A stretch of DNA of 64,000 nt. Origin: Candidatus Bathyarchaeota archaeon. GTDB taxonomy: Archaea > Thermoproteota > Bathyarchaeia > Bathyarchaeales > SOJC01. The stretch spans positions 1,246,229-1,310,228 of the forward strand of contig CP070835.1 in assembly GCA_020341775.1 (NCBI GenBank), in the 5' to 3' direction. Positions 10,197 through 19,393 of this stretch are shown one piece after another. The translations under genes and the position numbers were made by a program. Below the pieces are notes generated by a model. It was not told the origin of the DNA. It saw nothing but the letters and a program-made list of their open reading frames with translations, and ran no database searches. Numbering within the stretch: the stretch's first letter is position 1; the number at the start of each line of letters is the position of its first letter.

Positions 10197-10373
10197 TGTG
10201 TGTATGGCAAATTACGCTCAGACATACAAAAGCTGAAAGGACTCCCTCCCATTTGGACACAAGTGCAGCAGAAAGTATGATCGGTGAACCGCCTATTTTG
10301 CGGAAAACTTGTTGTAACTGCTTTAATAGGAGAATTGTGTTCTATTCTCTGCAAAAAAAAGGCTCACGATAAA

Positions 10374-12419
10374 ATGCTGATTCAGGAAATCATCCTTGAA
10401 AACTTCATGTCTTACGAATACGCTAGGATACCTTTTAGGTCAGGCGTAAATGTGGTTTGTGGGCCGAATGGTGCTGGAAAATCTTCCATTCTGTTGGGGA
10501 TATCAGTAGCGCTAGGTCAGTCTTACACGGAACGCTCAAGGAAATTGAGCAATCTTATCCGATGGGGCAAAGACCAAGCTCGAGTGACAATCGTCTTGGA
10601 CAATTCATTAGAGAAAGGCAAGCGTCCAGTTAGAAACTTCAACAAAGACCAAATCTTCCTGACTCGCGTGTTGAGGCGTGATGGTAAATATTGGTTTGAG
10701 CTTGACAATCAAGCTGCAACGAAAAAGCGTGTCGAAAGGGTCCTTCAAAAATTCAGCGTCGATCCCGATAATATTCTCATAATAATGCATCAAAGCATGA
10801 CAGAGCAGTTCACCGTTCTTTCACCTTCAGATAAACTTAGAATGGTGGAAGCAGCTGTCGGCTTGGAATCCTACCGTCGAAATGTCTTGGCAGCAACGAA
10901 AAAGTTGAGTCGAATATTGAGTGAAGAAGAGTCTGTGAGCAAACTTCTTGAATCAGCAGAGCAGACCTTGAATTATTGGCGAGAACAGTATGATCGTTAC
11001 CAACAGAAAAAGCAGCTGCAGATAAAGAGACGATTCTTGGAAAGGGAGCTTGCAGGGGCTGAAGCTTCTCGAAAGGAAGCTGCAATGAACGAATTGGAAG
11101 TTCAAGTTAAAACACAGGAAAAAGAACTTGAGCAGATTGAAAACAGAATCGTGGAAGTCCAAAGTGCGTTGGGAGAACTGCATTCAAAGCTAGACGAATC
11201 TAAAGCCTATTGGCAGAAGCTCTTTCATGAGCGTCTCTTCGTCGAAAGGCAAAGGGCTACGAATGAGGCTTTCATTTCTTCAAGGAACCAAACAATCAAC
11301 GAGATTCGCCAGATCCTAGAAAATAGTAGTGAAATGCTAAATGAATGCACTACTATGATCGAACAGCTCGAAATAGCAATAAATGCCCAGCAAGACTTGA
11401 GCTATTATGCAGTAAGGTTGATGGAGATAAAAAGAGCTTATAAAAACCTGGAATCCTCGTGGATGCGGCAGCTGAATCAGAAAAATGAGAACTTCAAAGC
11501 ACAACTGGAAAGCTACAATGGAACGCTTGAGAAGGTCGACAGAAATATTTCGGAAACACAGCAGAAGATCGAAGCTATCACAGAGGAGATTGACGGCTTA
11601 AATAGCCGTATTCTAGAGGCTAGAATTAACATTGCCGTAATAGATTATCAGAAACAAACAATCAAGAAGGAACTGAAAGAGTCTCGTCGGGAACTGAAAG
11701 TTAAAACCGCGGAGTACATGGAAGCATTAAAAGATGCGGAAAAAACTGGTCCACGAATAGTGTCAACTAGAACTGTAAACGAAATCTTAGATGAAGTCCG
11801 ACTGACCGAGGGCCACATCATCGCCCTTGCGGATGTTTCAGAAGACATTGAACGCATGTACGAATCCTACTCCACACTCTATCTTGACCTAAAAGAAAAA
11901 GCACAGGTAGTTGCTGCGAACCGGGAAAAAGCTTTGGAACAAGTCAAAGCCCGTGTAGAGTCGTGGCAAACAGTGATGCAAACCCTTCTGGATAATGTAA
12001 GCCTTCAATACCAAACAATTCTAACACACGCTCAGGCAGCAGGCGAGGTTCAGTTGACGAATGGCCATGATATAGAGGTTGCAGGATTAGAGGTACTTGT
12101 GGGCTTCAAGGGAGCTCAGCCAGTTCCCTTGAATGCCTACACTCAAAGCGGAGGTGAGCGGAGCATGGCTACCATGAGCTTCCTCCTAGCTCTGCAACGC
12201 CATGTGCAGTCTTCTTTCCGTGCTGTTGACGAATATGATGTGCACTTGGATCCAAGAAATCGAGAAACTATCACAAATCTTCTCATCGAGTCAGTCGAAG
12301 ACTGGAACTCACAATACCTGATAATAACTCCAAGCCAGATCACATTCGCAAAGCCAAATGTCCATATAATAACCGTCCAGAACGTTGGAGGGGCATCCAG
12401 AGTGAAAGAGGTTGTCTAG
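10374..12419 (+). CDS. SMC5/6-like coiled-coil ATPase
   Basis: The ABC-type head is split across the ends of this 681-residue protein. Walker A is GPNGAGKSS (30-38). The C-terminal half carries the signature SGGERSMAT (from 592) and a Walker B region FRAVDEYDVHLDP followed by LIITPSQITF. The SGGERS / VDEYDV / NR / LITPS pattern resembles SMC5 and SMC6 heads more than condensin, cohesin or Rad50. The coiled coil (about 180-560) is short, at roughly 60% of canonical SMC length, and I see no obvious hinge. An upstream ATG at 10284 exists, but the conserved domain begins at 10374. The next gene starts directly after the stop. Likely roles are DNA tethering, compaction or repair. Confidence 0.88.
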   Translation: MLIQEIILENFMSYEYARIPFRSGVNVVCGPNGAGKSSILLGISVALGQSYTERSRKLSNLIRWGKDQARVTIVLDNSLEKGKRPVRNFNKDQIFLTRVLRRDGKYWFELDNQAATKKRVERVLQKFSVDPDNILIIMHQSMTEQFTVLSPSDKLRMVEAAVGLESYRRNVLAATKKLSRILSEEESVSKLLESAEQTLNYWREQYDRYQQKKQLQIKRRFLERELAGAEASRKEAAMNELEVQVKTQEKELEQIENRIVEVQSALGELHSKLDESKAYWQKLFHERLFVERQRATNEAFISSRNQTINEIRQILENSSEMLNECTTMIEQLEIAINAQQDLSYYAVRLMEIKRAYKNLESSWMRQLNQKNENFKAQLESYNGTLEKVDRNISETQQKIEAITEEIDGLNSRILEARINIAVIDYQKQTIKKELKESRRELKVKTAEYMEALKDAEKTGPRIVSTRTVNEILDEVRLTEGHIIALADVSEDIERMYESYSTLYLDLKEKAQVVAANREKALEQVKARVESWQTVMQTLLDNVSLQYQTILTHAQAAGEVQLTNGHDIEVAGLEVLVGFKGAQPVPLNAYTQSGGERSMATMSFLLALQRHVQSSFRAVDEYDVHLDPRNRETITNLLIESVEDWNSQYLIITPSQITFAKPNVHIITVQNVGGASRVKEVV

Positions 12420-13238
12420 TTGCAACCAAACAGGCAGAGGAGACGGCTTGGTAAAGAAAATCTTGAACGTATCATTGACTTATGTCGCTCCCTTGAAGAG
12501 AGAGGCTTAGACCCTTTTTTAGTGAACGTGGACAAAGTGCTCGAAGTCATCCATGAATATTTCCCGGAATGGAAGAGCCCTGAAGAACTCTGCTTAGACG
12601 CAGAAGCAGTACACCAAATAGCCTCAGCCCTTAAGCTTCAAAGCGAATGGATTAAACACCGCTCCTCAGCCCTCTACACAGATCCCTTGCTATTCGTGGA
12701 CAAACTTCGTAGACTGTCCAAAGAAGAAATTTGCACGATTTTTCTCAAATCTTGGCATCCAGTGGTGGAGCTTGAACAGATTTCGCCAAGTAGCTTAGAA
12801 GAAGCGATGAAATATTGGAAAAGTTTGGTGCCGCTGAATGAAAGATGGCAGAGGCTTGAAGGGTTACATGGTGAGACTGGAACTGCCACTCCTGAAGAGC
12901 TGCTGAGACAGCAGATCATAGCTGAAAAGGAGTTTTCTAAGGAGCTGGAGAAATTCTGGCATGAATTGAAGCGGAAGGCTGTGGGAAAAGAAAAAATCGA
13001 ATATTGGGATTTTGTTGGCGCTGACACTTACGAGGAAACGGTACGACGCGCCTATAAAACAAGCTTTCTTGCTACATATGGGTATGCGACGTTGGAAGTT
13101 GATAGGTTAGAAGAGATAGTCTACATCATACCTTTTGATGTTCGCATTTCTATGCCAGAAGCCAAGCACGTAATTTCGCTTCCAATATCTATAACAATCG
13201 AGAATTGGAAAAACTGGAAGGACAGTGGAAAAGATTGA
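12420..13238 (+). CDS. Partner protein of the SMC-like ATPase, unknown family
   Basis: This 272-residue protein starts at a TTG that directly follows the TAG of the SMC-like gene, so translation is probably coupled. It is helical and acidic-basic mixed in the first 190 residues (for example DLCRSLEERGLDPFL). A short segment that may form beta strands lies near the end (VDRLEEIVYIIPFDVRI). The position suggests a kleisin-like linker that joins the two heads. I could not identify a kleisin N-terminal helix or C-terminal winged helix with confidence, so this is inference. The 3' end overlaps the next gene by 34 bp in another frame. Confidence 0.7.
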   Translation: MQPNRQRRRLGKENLERIIDLCRSLEERGLDPFLVNVDKVLEVIHEYFPEWKSPEELCLDAEAVHQIASALKLQSEWIKHRSSALYTDPLLFVDKLRRLSKEEICTIFLKSWHPVVELEQISPSSLEEAMKYWKSLVPLNERWQRLEGLHGETGTATPEELLRQQIIAEKEFSKELEKFWHELKRKAVGKEKIEYWDFVGADTYEETVRRAYKTSFLATYGYATLEVDRLEEIVYIIPFDVRISMPEAKHVISLPISITIENWKNWKDSGKD

Positions 13239-13786
13239 AGAAACGGGCTTTTTATGTAACGCAACTCAAGCGTGCAACCCACATGCTATTCTTTAAACAC
13301 CACAGAAAGCCGGGAGTGAAAGGCTGGGAGCTTAGGAAAAGGCTTGGATCAGATTATTTGAAAATTCTAGCGTTGCTTAATCGGTACTTAGAGAAACTGG
13401 ATCTGCAGGTGAAGTCAGTTTCTGCAGAGGAGGTATCAGCTGAAAATCCGACAAAAGCACAATTGGATAAGGATCGCTTTTACGTAACTCTTCGTGGCAC
13501 TCTTTCACCAAAGGAGGTGAAGATGATGGGGTGGCGCATAGATGACATTGCTGGCCTTGCGATAGTGATAGCCACAATCGTAGCTAGACAAGGAAAAGCG
13601 TCGAGAGATGAAGTAGAGGAACTATTGCGCATTAAGCTGCCGGGCTGGAGGGTGGGTTATAATGTGGATCGGTATATACGAGCGGGCTACATAGATCAAG
13701 ACGAAAAAGGGCAGCTTTACATTGATTGGCGGACCAGAGCTGAAATTGATGAGAAAACTTTAGTGAACCTAATCGTTGCGACATGA
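13205..13786 (+). CDS. Winged-helix partner of the SMC-like ATPase, KITE/MAGE-like
   Basis: This 193-residue protein seems to contain two winged-helix-like units. The first (about 25-95) ends in a strand pair RFYVTLRG. The second (about 103-185) contains AGLAIVIATIVARQGKASRD followed by VEELLRIKLPGW. That hydrophobic-helix / QGKAS / EELL pattern is like the MAGE/Nse3 winged helix and bacterial ScpB, both KITE proteins that bind SMC kleisins. The gene overlaps its upstream neighbour by 34 bp. The family assignment is by eye; a DNA-binding regulator is the alternative. Confidence 0.65.
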   Translation: MEKLEGQWKRLKKRAFYVTQLKRATHMLFFKHHRKPGVKGWELRKRLGSDYLKILALLNRYLEKLDLQVKSVSAEEVSAENPTKAQLDKDRFYVTLRGTLSPKEVKMMGWRIDDIAGLAIVIATIVARQGKASRDEVEELLRIKLPGWRVGYNVDRYIRAGYIDQDEKGQLYIDWRTRAEIDEKTLVNLIVAT

Positions 13787-13830: not shown

Positions 13831-14172
13831 TCACTGTCTAAACAAGAAATTTATTGCTTGAAATTCTTGGACGAAGGTCAACCCTTTTGGAGTGGTCTTG
13901 TAGACTCCATTGTTGTTTGCTATCATACCGTTCCGGTTCAGGAGTTCCAAGTAAAGTTTAAGCTGAGAGTGGCTCAGTCTTGCCTTGTACATTATATAGG
14001 TTTTCTTTTTGCCTCCCTTCGCCGTTATTAGAATCTCAGCAATTATGTCGTGGCGGTCTCTTCTATGAGATGGCGCTATTGCTTCCTCGTCTTCTAAAAT
14101 TTCTGGAGCCAATTCCAGGTCTTCTTCCTGAAGTTTTTTGACTATTGAAAAGCCCCCTCTCTGCCGCGCCAT
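13831..14172 (-). CDS. Winged-helix transcription regulator
   Basis: This 113-residue protein has a basic N-terminal part (HRRDRHDIIAEILITAKGGK) leading into a winged helix with the common archaeal pattern TYIMYKARLSHSQLKLYLELL, NRNGMI, then YKTTPKGLTFVQEF. That pattern matches the archaeal HTH_45 group of small DNA-binding proteins. No ligand domain is attached. It is convergent with the SMC-like operon. Its target is unknown. Confidence 0.8.
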   Translation of the reverse strand: MARQRGGFSIVKKLQEEDLELAPEILEDEEAIAPSHRRDRHDIIAEILITAKGGKKKTYIMYKARLSHSQLKLYLELLNRNGMIANNNGVYKTTPKGLTFVQEFQAINFLFRQ

Positions 14173-14445: not shown

Positions 14446-17358
14446 TCAGTCTGTTTCACCTCGAAGGACCTTCTTTTTATTGTTCTTCCGATCCTTCCAA
14501 TAGGGATAAGATTTAATGAAATTAATCTTAGCTTTCAAGAGATCAATAAAAAAATCATCATCATTAGGGTGCATCTTGCCTAAAATTCTAAAAGCCGTTT
14601 CAGGACCTACCCCTCTAACCTGCAAAGCCTCTACAGCCTTCCTACCATAACTTAGGATGAGATCAGCTGTTCGCCGCGAATAAACCAACTCTTCCAACTC
14701 CTCAGGAGTTAACTTCTTTCCCTTCTGTCTCTGCTTCAACAGGCTGTGCAAGACGCGAGGATCTTGACTTCGCATTAGTTTTGCTAGTAGTCCAGAACCA
14801 CATTTTTTACACACCAGCTTTTCTGGTAATTCTCGAATTCGTTTCTCTTCGAAAATTTGGCCACATGAAAGACAGAGCAAATTGGCCTTTCTTGTCAAAA
14901 TCGACTTCTTCATCCTTTCGATGTTGCTAAGCACCACTGACTCAGGGGCCATTAACTCGGAAGCCTCTAAATGCTTTGCTAAAATGTGGTAGGCTAAGGG
15001 CGTAGGTTTATCCAGTCTAAGAACTGCGCTTACTTTGATTTTTCCTTCTTTGATGTGTTTCATTATCTTCTTCACATTTGGCATGTCTACTTTTTCGATC
15101 ATCGCCTCACGAATAACCTCGTCGTAAACTGGCGTATTCTGGAACCGCGAGGGAAGCTCTGCCATCCGTTGAGGGCTCATTGTCTTTCCCCTAGGCAAAG
15201 CACCAAAGCGTTCTGCAACAAACTTCATTTTGTAGGCGAAGGGAAACCGCGTTTCCACATATTTATTGAAGGCTTTGTCAACATCCGTTGGAGTCAAACT
15301 AAAAAGGAGTCGAAAGATTTCATCAAATGTTTTTTTTTCGACCTTTTGAGGTGCCTCAATTAGTATACGATATCCATCGTTCCACCAACCCACAATTTGT
15401 GTTTGATCTGAGAGAAGCGCATCAAAAATACTGCCTAACGTGCGGTTGACAATTTCCCCGAAGCAGGCATGAACTACAACATATTTGTCATAGGCTTCTA
15501 GAAGTATGCAGTTGTGTGTGGGAAGAGGTAAATTTTCTTTGAGAAAAACGTCGATCTCCCTAACCGACTCAAGAAGCGCAGCCTTTCCTAATCCATGCAT
15601 CTCTGCAAGTTTTTCTGCAGTTTCCTCAACATTTCTGCTTTTGATCAATTCGTGCGCAATCTCTTCTCGTAGTCTACCAACATCTACAGCCAAATCAAAT
15701 GGGATTGGAATCATCTCACCATCCCATCCTGGAACAGCTGCGAATTTGTCCTCTGCAGGTGTCACGTAGACCATACCTGTTTGGTCTTCAATTTGCACTA
15801 TTCGCCAAACTTTGCCTTTGCATATGAAGTTTAAGCCTATCCGAGCCCTCAACGCCATGAATTCGTCGCCTAAGGTGCCTATTTTTCGGTCAGAGAGAAT
15901 GTCAACTATTGGATAGCGCCTTTCATCTGGGATCATAGAAAGATTCCTGTAATAATAGTCTCGCGTCCACCTAGTTTTCTTCAAGACTTCGCCTTCGATT
16001 TCTGCTTCTCTCAAAGTATCTAAGTAATTAATGATTTGTAAAAGCTTGGTTCTGGAGAGTTTCCTAAAGGTGTAGGTCCGACGAAAAATCTTCATAATCT
16101 CGTCGACTGTAGTCGTTTGTTTGTCCATAAGAACTCCGGCTATTTGATGCCCCGCCACATCCAAGGCATTTTCGTGGATCAGGAGCGGCTCCAGTGCTCT
16201 TTGGCGAGCTCTCCGCACCGCAGCTAGGGATTCCAAAACATCTTCCGAGAATGCAGTAACAATAACACCTTTTGAGACTAGACCCAAGCGATGGCCACTC
16301 CTGCCAACTCTCTGGATTAAACTGCCCACTTGTCTTGGAGAAAGATACTGAACCACAAGATCTACATGTCCGATGTCAACGCCTAACTCCATAGTACTAG
16401 TGCAGACAATGGCCTTCAAAGCATTCTCCTTGAACTCATCTTCAATCTGCTGCCGTTCTTCTCTTGACAAAGATCCATGATGAACTCCAATCTCATCCGT
16501 GAGCAAGTTGAATCTGTGTCCCAGCATCTCAGCGTTGGTCCGACTATTCACAAAAATCAGTGTTGAAACATGTTTCCTTACTAAATCCAACATGTGCCTG
16601 ATTCTCGCTGCAGCTTCAGGGGCTGTGCCTAATTTCCGAGCCAAATCAAAGTCCGCATCATCAGGAGTTGGATAATCTATGGTGAATGCGAAGTCTTTTG
16701 TCAACCAGACTTGTATGATCCTAACTGGTCTACGTGCACCGCCAATAAACCTAGCAACTTTTTCTGAGTTCGCCACAGTAGCTGATAAACCAATTCGTTG
16801 AAAATCCTTTTCAACGAGTTCAGAGAGCCGCTCCAGCGCAAGAGAGAGCTGTGCTCCACGTTTATTACTTGCAAGCTCATGCACTTCGTCAACAACCACA
16901 TAACGGATTTGCTTGAGATGCTTCTGCATTCTAGAACCAGGCAAAATCGCTTGAAGCGTTTCAGGCGTTGTAACAAGAATATCAGGGGGGCAGACTGCCT
17001 GCTTTCTGCGAATCGTTGGTTTGGTGTCACCATGGCGTACTTGAATAGAGAGGTGCAGTCTGATTGCCCAATAGGACATGCGTCTTCTCATGTCGCGGTT
17101 CAGAGCTCGAAGCGGCGTAATATATAGAACCGAAATGCCTTGCCTTTTGGGTTGCTTAAGAAGTTTTGAGAATATAGGAAGCAAGACTGCTTCTGTTTTG
17201 CCACTTCCAGTAGGGGCAATCAAGAGAATATTTTCGCCTTTCAAAATGAAGGGAATAGCTTTGAGTTGAGGCTCAGTAGGTTCGAGAAGCTCTAGCTCTT
17301 CCAAAACGTTTTGAACAGGTTTCGCCAACAGTTTGAAGATTTGAGCCTCTTTTCTCAA
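14446..17358 (-). CDS. lhr: Lhr-family ATP-dependent helicase
   Basis: This is a large superfamily 2 helicase of 970 residues. Visible motifs are I (APTGSGKTE, 48-56), II (DEVH, 157-160), III (LSATVAN, 191-197) and VI (QRVGRSGHR), plus the Lhr hallmark TSTMELGVDIG. These are followed by the winged-helix and Lhr core region. The C-terminal part has a four-cysteine zinc ribbon (CLSCG and CKKCG) and a helix-hairpin-helix (LQVRGVGPETAFRI). Archaeal Lhr proteins unwind branched or RNA-DNA duplexes during repair. The gene appears monocistronic. Confidence 0.93.
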   Translation of the reverse strand: MRKEAQIFKLLAKPVQNVLEELELLEPTEPQLKAIPFILKGENILLIAPTGSGKTEAVLLPIFSKLLKQPKRQGISVLYITPLRALNRDMRRRMSYWAIRLHLSIQVRHGDTKPTIRRKQAVCPPDILVTTPETLQAILPGSRMQKHLKQIRYVVVDEVHELASNKRGAQLSLALERLSELVEKDFQRIGLSATVANSEKVARFIGGARRPVRIIQVWLTKDFAFTIDYPTPDDADFDLARKLGTAPEAAARIRHMLDLVRKHVSTLIFVNSRTNAEMLGHRFNLLTDEIGVHHGSLSREERQQIEDEFKENALKAIVCTSTMELGVDIGHVDLVVQYLSPRQVGSLIQRVGRSGHRLGLVSKGVIVTAFSEDVLESLAAVRRARQRALEPLLIHENALDVAGHQIAGVLMDKQTTTVDEIMKIFRRTYTFRKLSRTKLLQIINYLDTLREAEIEGEVLKKTRWTRDYYYRNLSMIPDERRYPIVDILSDRKIGTLGDEFMALRARIGLNFICKGKVWRIVQIEDQTGMVYVTPAEDKFAAVPGWDGEMIPIPFDLAVDVGRLREEIAHELIKSRNVEETAEKLAEMHGLGKAALLESVREIDVFLKENLPLPTHNCILLEAYDKYVVVHACFGEIVNRTLGSIFDALLSDQTQIVGWWNDGYRILIEAPQKVEKKTFDEIFRLLFSLTPTDVDKAFNKYVETRFPFAYKMKFVAERFGALPRGKTMSPQRMAELPSRFQNTPVYDEVIREAMIEKVDMPNVKKIMKHIKEGKIKVSAVLRLDKPTPLAYHILAKHLEASELMAPESVVLSNIERMKKSILTRKANLLCLSCGQIFEEKRIRELPEKLVCKKCGSGLLAKLMRSQDPRVLHSLLKQRQKGKKLTPEELEELVYSRRTADLILSYGRKAVEALQVRGVGPETAFRILGKMHPNDDDFFIDLLKAKINFIKSYPYWKDRKNNKKKVLRGETD

Positions 17359-17924: not shown

Positions 17925-18581
17925 ATGTCAGAAAGATTTGCCAAACGATGGGAGGAAACCTCTAATCAACAACCGTTTACATCGCGGGTCAAAGAGGCAT
18001 TGAGACCACCAGGCCCCCTGAAGCCACGACTTGACTTGGCAATTCGACGCATCGAACTCCAAGTTCAAAGGCTTGATCAAGCCGGTGAACGTTTCTCAGA
18101 GCGGGACAAGAAAATTTTTGCCAGGATAGTTGACGCCTACACAAAACATGACATGGCCAGAGCAAATGTTTTCGCAAACGAGCTTGCTGAAATCAGAAAG
18201 ATGGAAAGAATGATAATGCATGGAAGACTTGCGCTTGAACAAATCGTATTGAGGTTGAGAACTGTTTCCGAACTAGGCGATATTGTAACCACGCTTGCAC
18301 CTGCTGTTGGTGTACTCCGAAGTGTAAAAACTGGAATGTCAGCAATATTTCCCGAGGCAGAAAGAGAACTTGGACAAATAGGAACACTATTGAACGGCAT
18401 AATAATTGACGCTGGACAAAGCACAGGATTATCAATAAACTTCGAGTCAGCAAACGAGGACGCTCAGAAGATCCTTTCAGAAGCATCATCAGTTGCAGAA
18501 CAGAAAATCAAGGAGAAATTTCCCGAACTACCCACAGGCATACCAGAAGTTGGAGAAAAGACTTCTACTGGTCCTACCTAA
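17925..18581 (+). CDS. ESCRT-III paralog without winged helix
   Basis: This 218-residue protein has the Snf7/CdvB core: a basic helix 1 (PLKPRLDLAIRRIELQVQRL), the RDKKIFARIVDAY block, helix 2 (ARANVFANELAEIRKMERM) and a region that ends in a proline motif (KFPELPTGIPE). That last motif resembles the MIM2 peptide bound by the Vps4 MIT domain. It lacks the C-terminal winged helix of the second paralog (19425-20300), so it resembles the CdvB1/B2-type filament subunits of Sulfolobus. The ATG follows a good Shine-Dalgarno site (TAGGAGGT). It is first in the four-gene operon. Confidence 0.88.
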   Translation: MSERFAKRWEETSNQQPFTSRVKEALRPPGPLKPRLDLAIRRIELQVQRLDQAGERFSERDKKIFARIVDAYTKHDMARANVFANELAEIRKMERMIMHGRLALEQIVLRLRTVSELGDIVTTLAPAVGVLRSVKTGMSAIFPEAERELGQIGTLLNGIIIDAGQSTGLSINFESANEDAQKILSEASSVAEQKIKEKFPELPTGIPEVGEKTSTGPT

Positions 18582-18607
18582 GCACTGCGAAAAAGCAGGT
18601 GATTACT

Positions 18608-19393
18608 ATGTCTGAATCAACATCCAACCTTTTTACCTATCTTGGCAAGCCAGTAAAAGATGAATATGGCCACATCATCGGCACAATGGCGTCTTTTCTA
18701 GTTACGCCTGGGGGTAGAATAAACGGAGTATTCATCGAACATGGAGATGGGCGCATTAAGCAATATTCAAGTGATCAAATAAAGACTGAAAACAACGAAG
18801 TTGTACTATTCTCTCCCCTCAAAATGCAAGCCAACAATTTCTGCAATCAAATACCACTCCTTTGGAGAAAAACACAAGCACTAAGAGACTTGAACGAAAA
18901 GAAGAAAATCCCCGAAGACATGTATGGCGACTTGTACTCGAGCTTTGAAGGCGCCCTAAATCAGCTCAAAGCAGAAGCAGAAGGCACAATTGGAGACGTT
19001 GAAAAAGAAATTGAAAGCTGCACTCTACTCGTCAGAGAGCTTAATTCTGCTTTGATCAACCTAGAAATTGAACGAGAAATAGGACAAGTCAATGAGGAAT
19101 CTTACCAGACTGCCATCGACATGGTGAAAGAAGGGCTGAAGCGAATCAATGCTGAAAAGAACGACTTCACTGCTTTGAAAAACAAACTGACTAACATGCT
19201 TCTTGGCGAAACGCAAGAGGAACCTGCAGAAGCAACGATTGAATCAGCTGCCGAAGAACAGGAGGAAACGGTCCTTGAGCCAATCAGCGAGTCCCTGGAC
19301 ACTTCACTTCCAGAACCCCCAGAATCCCCTGAACCTACAGGGGAATCCCCCGTTGTAGTGTACGTGAAAAACGCAGATCAACCAAGTCCATAA
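18608..19393 (+). CDS. cdvA: Cell division protein CdvA
   Basis: An N-terminal PRC-barrel-like domain (FTYLGKPVKDEYG, then VFIEHGDGRIKQYSSDQI) is followed by a long coiled coil (about 80-195). A Glu- and Pro-rich tail carries near its end VVVYVKN. In Sulfolobus a short C-terminal strand of CdvA (the E3B peptide) binds the winged helix of CdvB, and this segment is a good candidate for it. CdvA binds membrane and DNA and recruits ESCRT-III to mid-cell. An in-frame GTG at 18599 exists, but the ATG at 18608 is better spaced from AGGTGAT. Confidence 0.9.
   Translation: MSESTSNLFTYLGKPVKDEYGHIIGTMASFLVTPGGRINGVFIEHGDGRIKQYSSDQIKTENNEVVLFSPLKMQANNFCNQIPLLWRKTQALRDLNEKKKIPEDMYGDLYSSFEGALNQLKAEAEGTIGDVEKEIESCTLLVRELNSALINLEIEREIGQVNEESYQTAIDMVKEGLKRINAEKNDFTALKNKLTNMLLGETQEEPAEATIESAAEEQEETVLEPISESLDTSLPEPPESPEPTGESPVVVYVKNADQPSP

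Follow-up and report, generated by a model that had tools for sequence, protein, structure and literature searches.

A conserved three-gene operon of Bathyarchaeia that probably encodes a compact SMC-kleisin-KITE complex of the Smc5/6 type

Complexes that combine a structural maintenance of chromosomes (SMC) ATPase with a kleisin and a KITE protein are known from several systems. The eukaryotic Smc5/6 core has two SMC proteins, Smc5 and Smc6, which carry a hinge on a long coil, two KITE subunits, Nse1 and Nse3, and the kleisin Nse4; canonical Smc-ScpAB is likewise specified by an operon of SMC, kleisin, and KITE genes, with a long, hinge-bearing coil and partners of the ScpA and ScpB families. 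Wadjet JetABC and MukBEF share the same three-part architecture. ATPases of the MukB/JetC type have long coils, and those of Lamassu are short-coiled. Archaeal Smc complexes have been argued to lack a KITE subunit (PMC7055376), and SMC ATPases related to SMC5/6 are already known from archaea (Yoshinaga and Inagaki 2021, as cited in PMC9389158). Here we analyze a three-gene cassette in a 64,000-nucleotide stretch, hereafter the window, of the genome of a Candidatus Bathyarchaeota archaeon (GenBank assembly GCA_020341775.1, contig CP070835.1, positions 1,246,229 to 1,310,228). We conclude, with a probability of about 0.78, that the products of this cassette make up a compact SMC-kleisin-KITE complex, an archaeal one of the Smc5/6 type. 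Its parts were recognized by sequence or predicted structure, the window's own genes 2 and 3 through their relatives.

All three genes lie on the plus strand. Gene 1 (10374..12419, ATG start) encodes a 681-residue SMC-type ATPase, gene 2 (12420..13238, TTG start) a 272-residue Nse4-like kleisin, and gene 3 (13205..13786, TTG start) a 193-residue predicted KITE protein. The first base of gene 2 directly follows the stop codon of gene 1, and gene 3 starts 34 bp inside the end of gene 2; an earlier note on this DNA, made from the sequence alone, had described the three open reading frames, the gapless junction, and the overlap exactly. An in-frame GTG at 10284 would lengthen gene 1 to 711 residues; most homologues from the class begin at the equivalent of 10374. 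The likeness to the eukaryotic Smc5/6 core lies in the type and motifs of the ATPase head, the Nse4-type C-terminal domain of the kleisin, and the tandem winged-helix subunit of the Nse1/Nse3 type. The cassette differs in having one gene each for SMC and KITE, and in an ATPase with a very short coil and apparently no hinge. Within the operon we saw no Nse2, Nse5, or Nse6, and gene 3 showed no Nse1 RING domain.

The head of gene 1 is of the SMC type (Pfam SMC_N, 2.4e-35), and a single-sequence search of the PDB placed yeast Smc5 and human Smc6 at the top. A profile built from 35 relatives of gene 1 scored human SMC6 at 222.7, yeast Smc5 at 218.5, and yeast Smc6 at 199.9 bits, against 167.9 bits for the best canonical (archaeal) SMC and about 42 for Rad50; human SMC5 was lower, at 163.6 bits, so that the separation is clear though not for every member. 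In the reverse test, the canonical SMC of the same genome matched SMC, Smc1, Smc2, Smc3, and Smc4, and no Smc5 or Smc6 at 1e-12. The Walker A motif GPNGAGKS (residues 30 to 37; 10461..10484) has G30, P31, N32, G33, G35, K36, and S37 invariant in the 35 homologues, as is the ATP-binding cassette signature SGGER (residues 592 to 596; 12147..12161), which reads SGGERSMAT through residue 600. Further on come the Walker B/D-loop segment VDEYDV (residues 618 to 623; 12225..12242), followed by HLDPRNRE, and, within LIITPS, the ITP motif (residues 651 to 653; 12324..12332). In an alignment that also holds SMC5, SMC6, and canonical SMC, the cassette ATPases share with SMC5 and SMC6 the motifs FR.(V/L)DE and (M/L)D..NR and a TP at the last strand; at the same positions canonical SMC reads DE.DAHLD and ends in TLK or a similar motif. 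A tree of the heads joined the cassette ATPases and SMC5/6 to the exclusion of canonical SMC with support of 96/89. With a single Rad50 sequence on a very long branch as its outgroup, it does not tell an SMC6 nested in the cassette group from one next to it. The archaeal ATPases described before also group with SMC5 and SMC6, and gene 1 is very probably one of them.

The coil of gene 1 sets it apart. Coil and apex together occupy 213 to 337 residues between the head halves in 26 sequences (333 in the window's gene 1), too few to hold a hinge of 120 to 150 residues as well as two coil arms of useful length. Pfam gave no SMC_hinge match in gene 1, while the canonical SMC of the same genome matched that family at 8.6e-21. 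Judged by sequence, gene 1 has no hinge domain left. A zinc-hook CxxC was also absent from the 35 gene 1 sequences. Short coils occur as well in other SMC-related ATPases, namely the ASRP family (coalescin ClsN, Sph) and Lamassu LmuB. Gene 1 scored only 60 bits against the NCBIfam ASRP model (NF045487), far below its cut-off of 300 bits; the NCBIfam Rad50 model was also matched weakly, SMC models scored far higher, and matches to the PADLOC models for LmuB and JetC were weak to moderate. The excerpted text of PMC9389158 mentions no kleisin/KITE operon for ASRPs, unlike the cassette.

Gene 2 is a kleisin, and specifically an Nse4-like one. When a 39-sequence profile of gene 2 was run against 177,635 PDB sequences, the only significant matches were to Nse4, from yeast (3.7e-5) and human (EID3, an Nse4; 4.9e-4). 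With a wider profile of 59 sequences these improved to 4.3e-6 and 6.1e-5, respectively, followed by archaeal ScpA C-terminal domains (0.019 and 0.024) and then by unrelated proteins and a weak match to the ScpA N terminus (0.34). Nse4_C was found by Pfam in 35 of the 59 gene 2 relatives (best 3.5e-7), every other listed family in two members at most. A scan of 151 whole genomes of the class with Nse4_C, blind to the cassette, gave matches in 42 genomes at 1e-3 (six of the 151 over the curated Pfam cut-off); those compared with the earlier coordinates all fall in gene 2, and at the same E value no match was obtained in 14 well-known control genomes.

The AlphaFold2 model of gene 2, with a mean predicted local distance difference test score (pLDDT) of 78, has the layout of a kleisin: an N-terminal helical domain, a poorly predicted and presumably flexible linker, and a C-terminal winged helix, for which binding to the SMC heads is predicted. 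The N-terminal domain (residues 3 to 82; 12426..12665), with helices at residues 3 to 28, 37 to 50, and 54 to 82, is the part to which the weak ScpA N-terminal match corresponds, and is a candidate for binding the SMC neck. The C-terminal winged helix (residues 169 to 238; 12924..13133) runs helix-helix-helix-strand-strand and is a candidate for binding the SMC head cap. Foldseek ranked the Nse4 chains of two Smc5/6 structures from cryo-electron microscopy at the top (1.3e-3 and 1.5e-3), with ScpA, condensin, and cohesin kleisin chains lower down; the winged helix matched those of the ScpA and Scc1 C termini bound to SMC heads. These E values are modest and the whole-chain template modeling score is low (0.27), as is to be expected for domains positioned independently of each other. 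A resemblance of the gene 2 N terminus to the Nse3-binding region of Nse4 looked possible by eye, was supported by no tool, and was dropped.

For gene 3, the assignment comes from comparison of folds and from Pfam matches of its relatives; profile searches against PDB sequences returned no KITE. AlphaFold2 (mean pLDDT 81) gave two winged helices in tandem, and Foldseek matched the model to two MAGE-G1/NSE1 chains, two Nse1-Nse3-Nse4 chains, a JetABC chain, MAGEA4, and MukE, and lower to ScpB and then to other winged-helix proteins; the KITE chains of both Wadjet and MukBEF are thus among its structural matches. Across 58 relatives of gene 3, no Pfam families recurred more often than MAGE (found in 14, best 2.8e-4) and SMC_Nse1 (in 12, best 1.2e-4); the matches were weak but consistent. 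The MAGE model, run over 200 whole genomes of the phylum, gave 18 matches, 15 of which are gene 3 (one at the curated cut-off), and none in 14 control genomes. Each time it was the C-terminal half of the model, about positions 118 to 206 of 207, that matched the gene 3 relatives, and the MAGE/Nse3-like unit of the window's protein is the second winged helix (residues 112 to 173; 13538..13723). SMC_Nse1 is not diagnostic by itself, because its whole-genome matches were mostly scattered and weak, with four of 14 at the cassette. We accordingly predict that gene 3 is a KITE protein with tandem winged helices, whose nearest structural counterparts are Nse1 and Nse3/MAGE. Likeness to both would be expected of a single KITE that predates their duplication.

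As controls we put ten proteins encoded by canonical operons, five ScpA and five ScpB from this genome and its relatives, through the same scan. ScpA matched SMC_ScpA, Rad21_Rec8, and CNDH2_C, and ScpB matched SMC_ScpB and regulators; none of the ten matched Nse4_C, MAGE, or SMC_Nse1. Conversely, when Pfam families are ranked by how often genes 2 and 3 and their relatives match them, ScpA and ScpB do not appear among the top 25.

The cassette is conserved. Our homologue searches covered the host phylum. Among 201 genomes from the class, gene 3 was found in 158 and gene 2 in 160, at abutting coordinates; each gene is represented in 75 of the 85 genera. The gene 2 profile reached far beyond the class, to 126 of 300 genomes in a phylum-wide sample. 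We compared 80 loci besides the window, 40 from the class and 40 from the phylum sample, seeking all three genes. Among the 68 phylum loci with three full-length genes, 67 keep the order 1-2-3 on one strand, with median gaps of -4 bp between genes 1 and 2 and -25 bp between genes 2 and 3; that is, the genes overlap. This spread and constancy of order show that the arrangement is not due to chance. Pairwise distances of the three proteins correlate (r = 0.89 to 0.91). The three genes are inherited together as an operon, conserved across Bathyarchaeia and many other families of the phylum. Gene 1 is absent or broken in a few assemblies, likely from assembly frameshifts. The window's host genome, a single contig of 1.92 Mb, has one copy of the cassette; another genome (G164) has two (L091 and L092), and gene 1 of the second appears broken in the assembly.

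These results bear out the remaining proposals of the earlier note. The SMC5/SMC6-type head that it read from motifs agrees with profile scores, the reciprocal search, and the tree; the short coil is real, and is at the same time a true departure from eukaryotic Smc5/6, with the hinge gone. Its helical gene 2, suggested as the kleisin partner, proved Nse4-like in the PDB profile search and by Nse4_C, with ScpA negative as a control, and the two winged-helix units that it saw in gene 3 are modeled in tandem, the second being the one that MAGE profiles match. Among the outcomes that it named as speaking against the idea were a gene order that varies among relatives and a gene 3 resembling DNA-binding regulators only; the order held, and MAGE and SMC_Nse1 led the Pfam counts while KITE and MAGE chains led the Foldseek list. 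Finally, it placed the novelty in the partners, the ATPases being known. In the open-access literature searched, with preprints and most subscription journals outside it, we found neither this operon nor any Nse4-like or Nse1/Nse3-like partner from archaea described; a description elsewhere is possible.

The same genome encodes a canonical smc-scpA-scpB operon of three overlapping genes (G000:C1:1748040-1752842; L247:2541-7342) and a Rad50-like ATPase with a zinc-hook match that adjoins a metallophosphoesterase (Mre11-Rad50). Since both are encoded separately, the cassette would specify a second SMC-kleisin complex. The presence of scpB in this bathyarchaeon seems at odds with the view that archaeal Smc generally lacks ScpB (PMC7055376). 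In the phylum sample, at least eight genomes (families f30 and f34; for example G203, G207, and G212) have gene 2 and no canonical SMC at 1e-20, and in some relatives canonical SMC is retained and the cassette is missing. With each found without the other, the two systems are partly independent, and in the f30 and f34 genomes the Smc5/6-type complex may be the only SMC-kleisin complex.

Several observations weigh against assigning the cassette to the Smc5/6 type. The approximately unbiased test rejects neither alternative tree firmly (p = 0.062 and 0.12, the latter for the cassette grouped with canonical SMC), the head tree contains long branches, and a hinge is absent from gene 1, unlike Smc5/6. 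The case for genes 2 and 3 is made through relatives, the window's own copies giving weak single-sequence matches: Nse4_C matches gene 2 only at E 0.09, below the cut-off, and Pfam and PDB searches with gene 3 returned nothing relevant or reliable. SMC_Nse1 never rose above the Pfam cut-off in the genome scan. A role in DNA repair, moreover, is argued from neighbors and homology only.

Among other explanations, we regard a defense system of the Wadjet (JetABCD) or Lamassu type, with an SMC sensor and a kleisin/KITE pair recognizing invading DNA, as unlikely. The short coil recalls Lamassu, the LmuB and JetC models match gene 1 to a degree, and a JetABC chain is among the best structural matches of gene 3. 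Eukaryotic Smc5/6 itself has a role in antiviral immunity (PMC10586767). However, we found no nuclease or other effector in the conserved unit or as a conserved neighbor at the cassette loci compared, and thus no counterpart of the JetD nuclease of Wadjet; genes 2 and 3 match no PADLOC model and are Nse4-like and Nse1/3-like by sequence; and a cassette that is usually single-copy, occurs in 75 of 85 genera, and shows correlated divergence (r about 0.9) is unlike patchy defense islands. That the cassette is a second, diverged copy of canonical Smc-ScpA-ScpB, with no special relation to Smc5/6, is improbable. Such a copy would account for the shared three-part architecture, the identical gene order of the canonical operon in the same genome, and the ScpA-like aspect of the gene 2 winged helix, and the tree test does not reject it (p = 0.12); yet profiles cleanly separate the two systems for all three genes, the FR.(V/L)DE, D..NR, and ITP motifs of gene 1 are absent from canonical SMC, and only canonical SMC has a hinge.

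The cassette might instead pair a short-coil ATPase of the Rad50 or ASRP kind with two unrelated DNA-binding regulators. Winged helices are common in regulators, some of which appear in the structural and Pfam lists of gene 3, and the NCBIfam Rad50 and ASRP models do find gene 1, weakly. We consider this very improbable, given that SMC models score far above both, that gene 1 has no CxxC zinc hook, that MAGE and Nse1 rank ahead of regulators for gene 3, and that conservation of the operon extends to all three genes. We give the least credence to the idea that archaea acquired a eukaryotic Smc5/6 module by transfer, which similarity to the eukaryotic partners might evoke: the cassette is spread over many families of one archaeal phylum, has a single gene for SMC and for KITE where eukaryotes have duplicated pairs, and is too dissimilar for a recent event.

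If the cassette does encode a complex of the Smc5/6 type, its assembly can be outlined from the single-chain models and the known families, from which we infer that the three proteins form a complex. Two gene 1 ATPases would pair through their heads upon ATP binding. Gene 2 would link the two, with its N-terminal helices on one neck and its C-terminal winged helix on the base of the partner ATPase; a gene 3 dimer would sit on the middle of gene 2. By analogy with Smc5/6-Nse1-Nse3-Nse4 and Smc-ScpAB, the assembly would be an ATP-gated clamp around DNA. Because there is no hinge, ring closure would fall either to the heads and the kleisin by themselves or to the apex of the short coil, and, closed in this way, the complex would probably clamp DNA or move locally along it without extruding large loops.

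The surroundings of the cassette bear on its possible role. An Lhr-type helicase (DEAD, Helicase_C, DEAD_assoc, and WH_Lhr by Pfam) lies convergently on the minus strand at 14446..17358, outside the operon, and a homologue is found near the cassette in 24 of 40 phylum-sample loci, in many distant lineages; in most of these loci it is no more than about 65 bp from gene 3 and oppositely oriented. A family of about 230 residues with no clear Pfam match lies upstream, mostly divergently, at 24 loci across the phylum (for example, L204:200-916). These conserved neighbors suggest a shared function in DNA repair. We infer, at about even odds, that the complex serves genome maintenance at replication or recombination intermediates, possibly with the Lhr-type helicase, alongside canonical Smc-ScpAB. 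Between gene 3 and the helicase, a small HTH_45 winged-helix gene occupies 13831-14172 on the minus strand. A probable cell-division pair occupies 17925-19393, where a CdvA-like gene (8.5e-9) comes immediately after a Snf7/ESCRT-III-like one (Pfam, 2.6e-5); a related Snf7-like family occurs near the cassette at a few other loci of the class.

With Nse4-like and Nse1/Nse3-like genes kept together in a conserved operon of archaea, the origin of eukaryotic Smc5/6 becomes a question that can be tested directly. We give somewhat less than an even chance to a history in which the cassette is a pre-eukaryotic three-gene archaeal Smc5/6 core whose SMC and KITE genes were duplicated in eukaryotes, and which acts as a hinge-less clamp with the Lhr-type helicase in repair. 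For biochemistry and structural work the cassette offers a minimal, probably homodimeric version of the machine, and the absence of a hinge would bear on general models of SMC ring closure and DNA loading. Our findings suggest that the core of the eukaryotic Smc5/6 machine is older than eukaryotes; if this is true, an SMC-kleisin-KITE machine works without the hinge thought to close the ring.

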